From Flectobacillus sp. BAB-3569 (GTDB taxonomy: Bacteria > Bacteroidota > Bacteroidia > Cytophagales > Spirosomataceae): a stretch of 64,000 nucleotides of DNA. Location of the stretch: positions 124,007 to 188,006 of the forward strand of contig NZ_NJFZ01000010.1 of assembly GCF_002270355.1 (NCBI RefSeq), given 5' to 3'. The position numbers and the translations under genes were made by a program. This document shows, piece by piece, positions 20,306 to 62,202 of this stretch (positions within the stretch are counted from its first letter, which is position 1; each line of letters starts with the position of its first letter). The notes below the pieces were generated by a model that saw nothing but the letters and a program-made list of their open reading frames with translations, ran no database searches and was not told where the DNA came from.

Positions 20306-20352
20306 AGAAAATTGGATGTATGATTTGATGGTAATGAGCTGTTATTAGTTAT

Positions 20353-20508
20353 GTTAGTGCGCAAAATAGAATTTAATATTGTGCTTTAGGCTTTCAGATA
20401 TCGGCTTTCGGCGGTGGGCTTTCGGCAAAAATATTCCTAGTGAATTCAAAAAAGCTTTTTGACTTAATGCCAATTGCGGATGAAATGAATTCCATTTAGC
20501 CCACTAAC
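20353..20508. repeat. Intergenic repeat element, copy A, with terminal inverted repeats
   Basis: The 156-bp unit begins gttagtgcgcaaaatagaat, and its end reads as gttagtgggctaaatggaat on the other strand, giving imperfect terminal inverted repeats of about 22 bp. Bases 20353-20423 match 28148-28220 closely, including the shared ctttcggcggtgggcttt. It has no coding capacity. It lies between the kinase and nucleotidyltransferase genes, whose operon it separates. Confidence 0.7.
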
Positions 20509-20551
20509 TTATTTGGTAAATCGGTAATGATATTTTGCTGTCTGTTTATGA

Positions 20552-25820: not shown

Positions 25821-25851
25821 CTTCAATCGGTAGAGATTTTAATTAGTACAA

Positions 25852-26035
25852 GTATTAGTGCTGAATTATATGTTGCTAGTGTAAGGTTTTGATTTTCATT
25901 AATTTTATCCGCAGTAAACTCTATGCAATAAGCAAATTTTTTTTGTGCTTCTTAAGAAACCCAAAATACGTTTTGCTGAGTGCCCATAGCTGATTACCGA
26001 AAGCCCAATAATACACTCATACTTAGCTATTTTTA
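25852..26035. repeat. Intergenic repeat element, copy D (partial)
   Basis: It begins gtattagtgctgaattatat, matching the outer end of the 27812-28413 element. It contains aattttatccgcagta (compare 28079-28096) and a module tgcccatagctgattaccga that matches those near 28042 and 61978. No coding capacity; it fills most of the thiolase-purC gap. Confidence 0.6.
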
Positions 26036-26052
26036 ATACTACCCAACATAAA

Positions 26053-27688: not shown

Positions 27689-27751
27689 TCAAATTGTATA
27701 ATACAAAGACTTAAAAGTATTCATCAAAGGGTATTTTTCTGTTTTTCGAAC

Positions 27752-27793
27752 AAAAAAACCTTATTAGACGTTAGTCTGATAAGGTTTTTTTTT
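27752..27793 (+). terminator. Rho-independent terminator
   Basis: The stem aaaaaaccttattagac/gtctgataaggtttttt, with a 4-base loop, ends in nine T on the plus strand. It lies about 65 bases after the STAS gene. Confidence 0.85.
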
Positions 27794-27811
27794 ATATTGA
27801 ATCCCCGTTAT

Positions 27812-28413
27812 GTATTAGTGCTGAATATATGAGTTGCGAATTTTAAAGGTAAAATTTTTATTGTCAATATCTGATTCTTTCAATTTATTTAATCTAATGA
27901 GATAAAATATTGGTAATCATGAAATTACTCTCCAAATTCAATGCTTCTACTAAAGTTAGTGGGCAAAATAAAATTGAATTAATATGCTATAGGCAATAAG
28001 CCATAGGTATTGAGCAAAAATTTCATAGCGAATATTTTTTGCAGAAAGCCCATTGCTGAAAGTCGAAAGCCCTAAATTTAATTTTACCCGCAATAGGTAT
28101 TATTCTTTATGCCTGACGCCTACAGCTTATAGCCTAGAGCGTAATAAGTTAGTGGGCAAAATAGAATTTAATTTTTGTGCCCAAGGCATTCAGGTATCAG
28201 CTTTCGGCGGTGGGCTTTGTAAAAAAGCATGGCTGTGGTTAATAAAAACATTTTAACACTCTGTGCCTTGTGCCTAAACACATAACTTAAATCTAATTCT
28301 GCACGATTACTTAAGTAATCGTGCAGAATTAGATTTAATCAATTGGAGATGTAAGATATTGATAATTATAACTTTACATTCACAATTCACAACTCATAAT
28401 TCGGCACTAATAC
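27812..28413. repeat. 602-bp mosaic intergenic element with ~60-bp terminal inverted repeats
   Basis: The left end (gtattagtgctgaatatatg, about 27812-27871) matches the reverse complement of the right end (gtattagtgccgaattatga, about 28354-28413) over about 60 bases with small gaps. Inside are a direct repeat starting gttagtgggcaaaata (27955 and 28148), a block shared with copy A (28148-28220), a block matching the reverse complement of the 61.9-kb copy, and a perfect palindrome. There is no plausible protein. It fills the gap before the RNase Z gene. No clear target-site duplication is visible. Confidence 0.75.
28287..28338. repeat. Perfect 52-bp palindrome inside the repeat element
   Basis: Two 26-base arms meet at ttaa (28311-28314) with no loop. 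One arm (aagtaatcgtgcagaa...) recurs, slightly diverged, at 61869-61893 without its partner. No T run follows, so this is not a simple terminator. Confidence 0.85.
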
Positions 28414-28469
28414 TTAAGTGCTTTATTACTTAATTATTTTGTTTACCAGTAATTTAAAATTATAACAAT

Positions 28470-49972: not shown

Positions 49973-50195
49973 AGAGCATGTTTAAATTTTATAAGTCAGT
50001 CATTAAAATGAAAAATTTTGTATTTATCTCTATGAAATCCTACTGTTTGAGCCGAAGGCGAGTTTAGGATTTCTTGACTTTCTTTTGCGGCCGCCGCGCG
50101 GTTACTTTTCTTGTGTCAAGACAAGAAAAGTAAGGAGTTGAGAAGAGAAATTTTGTTTTTTCAACAAATGCTAAATAAAATTTTTAAATATACTC
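49973..50195. repeat. MITE-like 223-bp element with a GC-rich patch
   Basis: The ends (agagcatgtttaaatttt, and agagtatatttaaaaatttt read on the minus strand) are imperfect inverted repeats. The centre has a NotI-type GC-rich stretch, gcggccgccgcgcg (about 50087-50100), then a hairpin with 13-bp arms (ttacttttcttgt, 50102-50133). No ORF is seen. The right end touches the stop codon of the Anbu gene. Confidence 0.55.
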
Positions 50196-52269: not shown

Positions 52270-53050
52270 AAGTTTCTAGGATTAAGTTGGAAAATTGTTT
52301 TTGATTAAAAGCTCATGGAACCTTTAAGTATAAATGCTTAATTATTTTATGAGTTATTGAATCACCCAAATAAAATTAAGTTATTTTTGCAAAAAACCAA
52401 TGTTTGTAAAATAAAAAACTGTGAAATGCCGAATAAATAAATTTTAATTTGGACATACTAGATAATAATTTAGATTATTTGGTTGTTTGAAACATTTCAC
52501 GAAATTTTTGCAGTAATTTTTTACTGATTTACTTGATTAATATTCTGAAATTTTACGTAATTGCGAAAGAATATTAATGGATGCTTAATATTTGCTTTAA
52601 TATAACCTTTTCTAAATTATATGATAAACACTTTACCAACTACTCAATTAACCCCAAATAAGTACAAATTCATATTGTATTCCAGATTGGGAGCTTTGTT
52701 TCTACTCAACTGTACAGTGGTGTATATATTCGGTCATTAAACTTTTGGCAAGTTAACTTTTATCTTTCTCAATTCTTATCTCTAATATAATCGAATTCCG
52801 TTTTTCGATTCCTATTCATTGATTTTCATCAATGGCTTTAAGTGCTATTTTTCGACTCTAGCTTTGGGCTAGGTGATTTTCTTGTTGAAAAAATTGAATA
52901 ATCGAGCTTCAAATTTTGAAGCTATGAGGTTTCTATTTTTAATTTTTCATCATTGAATACACCAATCTGCCATGTTGTTACCCAACGCTACCGAGTAATC
53001 TGGAATCATTTATCATTCATACTATAATCTTAACTAAATTAATTATTAAC
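52270..53050. other. Intergenic region, 781 bp, with one possible small ORF
   Basis: This spacer separates the divergent alpha-E and TonB-receptor genes. It is AT-rich apart from one 39-codon ORF (52621-52740, listed separately). I see no hairpin terminator. Both promoters should lie here. Confidence 0.45.
52621..52740 (+). CDS. Possible small membrane peptide (39 aa)
   Basis: The ORF from ATG at 52621 to TAA at 52738 encodes 39 residues: a polar start (MINTLPTTQLTPNKYKFILY), then a hydrophobic helix (LGALFLLNCTVVYIFG). It lies 310 bases upstream of the TonB receptor start. I cannot name a family, and a chance ORF is quite possible. The clean polar-then-membrane layout is why it is listed. 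Confidence 0.25.
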   Translation: MINTLPTTQLTPNKYKFILYSRLGALFLLNCTVVYIFGH

Positions 53051-61771: not shown

Positions 61772-61860
61772 AGTTGGTAAAATAAGTTATTGGTTAGTTG
61801 TTTTTATCGGTTATTGGTTAGTTGTATATCAGAGAGTTATGGTGAAAGTGTATTTCGAAA

Positions 61861-62085
61861 ATACAATTAAGTAATCGTGCAGAACAAGATTTAAGTTTTT
61901 TGTTGAAGGCATAAGGTAACAGGCACAAGGCAAAGAGTGTTAAATCGTTCTTTTGTAAGGATAGATAAATTTTTGCCGAATGCCCATAGCTGAAAGCCGA
62001 AAGCTAAAGAAAACAAAGAGATTTTTATTAAATTATAAAGACTTTTTGCCTAATGCCTACGGCTTACAGCCTAGCACTTAAATCT
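61861..62085. repeat. Intergenic repeat element, copy C (inverted modules)
   Basis: It contains one arm of the 28-kb palindrome (aagtaatcgtgcagaa, 61869-61884), a block (ggcacaaggcaaagagtgtt) that is the reverse complement of 28251-28275, and a module (tgcccatagctgaaagccga) like those in the other copies. Near the end, tgcctacggcttacagccta resembles 28111-28135. No coding capacity. Confidence 0.65.
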
Positions 62086-62125
62086 AGCTAAACGAAAAAT
62101 TTAACTCACAATTCACTCAATAAAA

Positions 62126-62156
62126 AAGGGATTAAGGATTTTGTCCTTAATCCCTT
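62126..62156 (-). terminator. Terminator of the DUF4105 gene
   Basis: The 13-bp stem aagggattaagga with a 5-base loop and T run lies just past the DUF4105 stop on the minus strand. Confidence 0.8.
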
Positions 62157-62202
62157 AAAACTTTGATAGTTTTTGGGAAATGTGTCCTTGACCTAGACTG
62201 AA

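Follow-up and report, generated by a model that had tools for sequence, protein, structure and literature searches.

An intergenic mosaic of Flectobacillus sp. BAB-3569 interpreted as a nested and tandem pile of IS630-type MITEs

The RUP elements of Streptococcus pneumoniae are described as 107-bp units present in about 108 copies (PMC2229807), with ends like those of IS630-Spn1, a TA-containing target, and proposed movement by the IS630-Spn1 transposase (PMC2229807, PMC3049150). Correia/NEMIS and ERIC, as presented in the parts of PMC2229807 that concern them, are small composite or simple intergenic repeats with TA ends that are treated as MITEs. Heptamer repeats of TAACTGA form a further class of intergenic sequence, with 7-bp units described from Beggiatoaceae, Cyanobacteria and some Bacteroidetes in the part of PMC4679880 consulted. 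MITEs of the kind analyzed here are already well known as a kind; the particular family seems to be undescribed, and no description of it was found in the open-licence PMC literature.

The window, by which we mean the whole 64,000-nucleotide stretch of DNA that was analyzed, holds a block of 602 bases (27812-28413) in the intergenic space between two genes. A pile of several non-autonomous IS630-type MITEs, nested and in tandem, very probably explains this block. The units measure about 100 to 190 bp each, are gene-less, have TA as landing sites, and end in imperfect inverted repeats within borders of the form TA-AGT...ACT-TA. The preliminary description had offered a mosaic non-autonomous mobile element as one of two readings of the block, which was right as to kind, given 286 unit ends in the genome and an empty site in a congener, and wrong in taking it for one 602-bp element. 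Its end points were a few bases off: judged against the empty site of the congener G001, the full insert with its flanking TAs spans 27809-28432. That no protein is encoded agrees with the absence of listed ORFs of at least 90 aa between 27689 and 28469. The further statement that the window holds no transposase is borne out for the part covered: Pfam or NCBIfam scans of 12 among the 44 main ORFs of the window gave no transposase family, and the one IS630 (DDE_3) match of the draft genome lies on another contig.

Congener G001, in which the adjoining ribonuclease Z is 94% identical, has a single TA at this site (GAACCCTAT-TA-ATTATTTTG), compared with a block between two TAs here (GAATCCCCGT-TA[insert]TA-ATTATTTTG). 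The left border TA (27809..27810) is followed on the reverse strand by an M2-type unit with a decayed inner end (M2', 27811..27950), which matches reversed M2 in 84 of 105 ungapped columns. Next to the TA at 27951-27952 lies the left part of an older unit, M3 (27953..28144, forward strand), which aligns with the single unit carried by congener G002 at the same site. Two forward-strand units follow, M1 (28145..28313; 169 bp including its flanking TAs, the consensus of 18 copies being 183 bp) and M2 (28312..28416; 105 bp including its flanking TAs), which have TA 28312-28313 in common. The limits of M2 are given by the junction TAs and by separate copies elsewhere of query positions 453-602 or 499-602. 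The right end of M3 (28417..28430, forward strand) is separated from the rest of that unit by the M1-M2 dimer and shows the same AGTGCTTTATTACT end, beside the same flank, as in G002. The right border TA of the whole insert (28431..28432) was placed by comparing this site with those of G001 and G002.

The G002 site makes the order of events partly readable. It holds M3 alone, about 155 bp long, and M3 of the window is split into 27953-28144 and 28417-28430 around the TA-flanked dimer; the two copies agree in 121 of 147 ungapped columns, and that of the window has extra inner length. The left junction of M3 in G002 differs from G001 by three bases. At the point of dimer insertion G002 has AA instead of TA, a difference that calls for one substitution. 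In G003 and G004, no match to the block was found at this site. Stepwise insertion would account for this odd intergenic mosaic as follows: an M3 unit would have inserted at a TA that lies upstream of the ribonuclease Z gene, and the M1-M2 dimer would subsequently have entered a TA near the right end of M3. An M2-type unit would also have come to lie at the left TA of M3, with a timing that we infer.

Repeats within the block find their place in this architecture. The terminal inverted repeats of about 60 bases noted earlier are real (27808-27898 versus 28417-28328, 79% over 91 columns, E about 1e-15; arms of 71 and 19 nt in an ungapped comparison); they are longer than was supposed and are not the ends of one element but two copies of the small unit M2 in opposite orientation, one on each side. 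A perfect 26-bp palindrome at 28287-28338 results from the head-to-head junction of two units. The direct repeats inside the block are present as claimed (27953-28000 and 28146-28193, 79%), as are the segment in common with copy A at 20.35 kb (28145-28218 versus 20350-20422, 86%) and the reverse-complement segment at 61.9 kb (28189-28314 versus 62008-61867, 69%). Copy A (20350..20511) has a left TA followed by TGTTAG and an intact right TA; the 61.9-kb copy spans 61868..62084, its right end being approximate, and a related decayed unit lies at 25849..26025. Two of these argue against universal recent insertion: copy A is common to G001 and G002, in both of which the alignment is continuous through its site, and at the 25.85-kb site both congeners carry another unit, broadly of the same type.

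The modules recur throughout the draft genome (6.62 Mb in 183 contigs), in which the block has at least 105 partial matches at E<=1 (40 scored of 455 candidates), the stronger ones covering query positions of about 331-506 or 453-602. The commonest unit is M1, with a 183-bp consensus, TAAGTTAGTGGGCAAAATAGAATTTAA...TTAAATCTTATTCTGCACGATTACTTA, and a mean column identity of 89% over 18 copies. Its ends are sharp in unrelated surroundings, as seen when 15 single copies and the window copy were aligned with their flanks. They are imperfect inverted repeats (TAAGTTAGTGGGCAAAAT and TAAGTAATCGTGCAGAAT), with 20 of 27 bases agreeing between the two consensus ends. The end pattern TAAGTNANNGNGCANAAT, allowing one mismatch at most, occurs 145+141 = 286 times, compared with 5+2 = 7 for a reversed-pattern control, so these short, transposase-gene-free units exist in many dispersed copies. 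The preliminary description had proposed counting copies and looking for empty sites, and had held that modules confined to the window, with random end points, would speak against an element; the 286 ends, the single TA of G001, the genome-wide modules and their fixed ends all fall on the side of one.

The same pattern was searched in 38 relatives. It occurs in the congeners G001 (97+87, 184), G002 (66+61, 127), G003 (19+10, 29) and G004 (11+18, 29), whose reversed controls number 7 to 11 in all. Beyond the genus, counts are mostly near controls and are raised in G013 (14+10), G014 (8+14), G027 (10+5) and G028 (22+25). Most of the listed G028 matches belong to one repeated sequence, which in the copies inspected is the end of an IS630-family element. 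At four G028 loci (L051-L054) this high-copy IS630-family element has ends TAAGTAAGAGTACACAAT and TAAGTAATTAAACACAAT and two overlapping frames. In a collection of named genomes, in which records very near the present genome may have been omitted, the exact M1 core pattern occurs in Flectobacillus longus LYT7W (one stretch) and 'Cellulophaga sp. BC115SP' (two). A TA precedes 125 of 146 ends at loci chosen mostly for holding the MITE family. Unit ends avoid genes: only 4 of 31 fall in ORFs of at least 120 aa, though such ORFs cover 66-87% of those regions.

Target-site duplication with an empty site is found at the window site (in G001) and at position 32.5 kb of contig C21, where M1 lies between two TAs and both G001 and G002 have one TA, a clean empty site. 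At 35.7 kb of contig C26, the two congeners have CA rather than TA, one base off. The unit at 19.5 kb of C26 and that at locus L007 are absent from G001 and G002 with unreadable junctions, that of L007 being unplaceable because the spacer is too diverged; at 31 kb of C21, the unit is absent from G002, again with an unreadable junction. Inserts of other kinds were also noticed. One, at 49974-50195 of the window, has ends GAGCATGTTTAAATTT and GAGTATATTTAAAAATTT; G001 and G002 lack it and show the empty site GGTTTTACTG. It probably belongs to a separate MITE family, whose target duplication may be TTA. Opposite 17.76 and 44.06 kb of the window, contig C14 of G001 has two inserts that are absent here, one of about 300 bp and one of about 200 bp, each containing a hairpin.

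The ends of the units match those of an IS630-family IS. Congener G002 carries two tandem copies of such an element (contig C143; loci L062 and L132), 1130 and 1120 bp long and with one TA in common. One IS end is identical to M1-right and M2-left in 18 of 18 bases, and the other agrees with the M1-right consensus in 30 of 32 bases and with the window copy in 29 of 32; beyond these first 32 bases M1 is unlike the IS, with agreement at 6 of the 16 bases that follow. The frames of the element, interrupted in both copies, match HTH_23/HTH_32 and DDE_3 of Pfam, and score 61 and 97.7 bits against IS630 of NCBIfam, below the whole-protein cut-off of 100, as partial frames. The left end of M1 (TAAGTTAGTGGGC) is not among the IS ends seen. 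Among eleven further loci inspected for TA-bounded inverted ends, three have ends of this type, in G068 (TAAGTAATTAAGCAGAAT at both ends), G054 and G005 (TAAGTAATCAAGCAGAAT and close variants in the last two), and G016 is weakly similar. IS630 elements with similar ends occur in other genera of the host family.

The Flectobacillus sp. BAB-3569 draft itself has one IS630 (DDE_3) gene, on contig C106, which is 45% identical in the matched part. It was rejected as the parent: one end was seen, and that end differs. The surrounding locus (L063) is crowded with transposase frames, namely an rve integrase core, an IS630 that occupies two frames, and a piece of Mutator type. At a threshold of E<=1e-8, the draft gave no match to the DNA of the G002 IS among the 40 candidates scored out of 142. 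All tested features of an IS630-derived MITE are present save a parent IS in the same genome, here a 183-contig draft; strictly speaking, a MITE family need not have one. The parent may have been lost, have escaped assembly, or reside in other strains.

Because the matching IS was not found in the draft, mobilization by an IS630 transposase is something that we infer from the shared ends. The units would be moved in trans: a full-length IS630-family element would supply a transposase that recognizes the common ends, excises the unit and joins it into a TA, which would thereby be duplicated. Such cut-and-paste chemistry is that of the IS630/Tc1-mariner group. The edge TA of a resident unit would also be a target, so that units could stack.

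Stacking is indeed frequent. Twenty-five distinct junctions, from loci biased to the MITE family, join two inverted ends with one TA in common, in the end combinations ab (15), bb (4), bc (3), ac (2) and aa (1). Tandem shares of 53/146 and 50/142 ends are inflated, since these loci were fetched mostly for holding the family; among 100 end matches listed, at least four pairs (eight ends) share a TA. Random insertion would seldom give TA-sharing ends at a density of about 76 TA per kb, which argues that edge TAs are favored, that dimers move as units, or both. At one locus of contig C48 (L038, 216500-218500), M1-like and M2-like units form an amplified tandem array, in which unit ends recur every ~264 bp.

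The interiors of the units are periodic. Joint 7/14/21-bp periodicity reaches z scores of 3.9, 2.6, 5.8 and 5.9 in the four unit-bearing gaps of the window (20306-20551, 25821-26052, 27689-28469 and 61772-62202), and the other 19 gaps longer than 150 bp range from -2.5 to 2.9, the latter value belonging to the gap 52270-53050, which has no recognized unit. Inter-anchor lengths in 51 M1 strings of the draft are 14, 21, 28 or 42 in 32 cases and one base more (15, 22, 29) in 16; the remaining three, 8, 43 and 64 bases long, do not represent clean M1 arrays, and of the eight strings from other genomes, those with lengths of 21, 29 and 59 reflect chance. In single copies the heptad signal is weak, as only one strong 7-bp window was found across eight regions of the draft that were scanned. 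Four consecutive GCCTNNN heptads, with one mismatch, occur 85+104 times in the draft compared with 17+27 for the control. They also occur in 18 of the 97 other genomes of the order that were searched, a set outside G001-G004. Periodic 7-bp interiors together with frequent head-to-head tandems that have a TA in common are the unusual traits of the family.

Other readings were considered. Were the block one composite transposon of 602 bp, with inverted M2 copies at its borders and mobile as a whole, its outer inverted repeats (79% over 91 columns) and its complete absence from G001 would follow naturally. Yet no other match covers the whole query among the 40 scored of 455 candidates, and the units are found alone with their own ends. 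In G002, moreover, M3 stands by itself at this site, and the right end of M3 lies outside the right M2 copy, which makes a composite transposon very unlikely. The spread between genes of a structured-RNA family, which the preliminary description had suggested, or of RNA-level regulators has in its favor that the block folds far better than shuffled sequences (z -13, 20 shuffles) and that the 18 M1 copies have 89% mean column identity; inverted repeats alone, however, give such low folding energies. None of the 18 predicted pairs in the M1 consensus fold shows two-sided change across the 18 copies, and at gathering score Rfam matches only four tRNAs in the window and nothing in the block. We consider this reading extremely improbable.

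Local replication slippage and recombination, having made the tandems and the block without any insertion, would fit the heptad-periodic interiors, their 7-bp length steps, and the alternating ends at regular distance in L038. Against such an origin stand junctions with exactly one common TA in five end combinations, and a dimer that lies between TAs inside M3 at the window locus. Slippage may still alter the number of heptads and extend some arrays; as the source of the whole arrangement it is unlikely. Stepwise insertion of IS630-type MITEs remains our preferred explanation.

We further entertain, as a tentative and somewhat doubtful idea, that the MITE is self-targeting: its own edge, ACT-TA-AGT, would be a favored target from which piles grow, and the units would spread a degenerate GCCTNNN minisatellite that changes by whole heptads. 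If this were true, the heptad arrays scattered over Cytophagales would have MITEs as one of their vehicles. Shared-TA stacking and 7-bp interiors could help explain the origin and spread of such arrays, and they are the parts of this work that deserve specialist attention. In addition, Bacteroidota gain a high-copy MITE family whose candidate parent IS630 resides in a congener.

In its working, RUP of pneumococcus is the closest published analogue of these MITEs, a likeness by description with no homology claimed. As far as RUP is described in the cited sources, both are short, gene-less and intergenic, with IS630-like ends and a TA target. The present units differ in host phylum and end sequence, in varying in length and interior, in often stacking, in their 7-bp periodic interiors, and in that their matching IS was found in congener G002 and not in their own genome. 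IS630-family ISs with TAAGTAATNNNGCAGAAT-like ends (G002, G005, G054 and G068) have ends TA-AGTAAT...GCAGAAT as in the MITEs, and the tandem IS copies of G002 have one common TA in the same manner; these ISs are 1.1 kb long with transposase frames, whereas the MITEs are without frames and have an unrelated interior. Correia/NEMIS and ERIC are likewise similar by description, and the pertinent parts of PMC2229807 do not give their parent transposases as IS630. The TAACTGA repeats, also likened by description and as portrayed in the part of PMC4679880 consulted, consist of one fixed word in direct repeat; the heptads here are degenerate GCCTNNN words carried inside MITEs.
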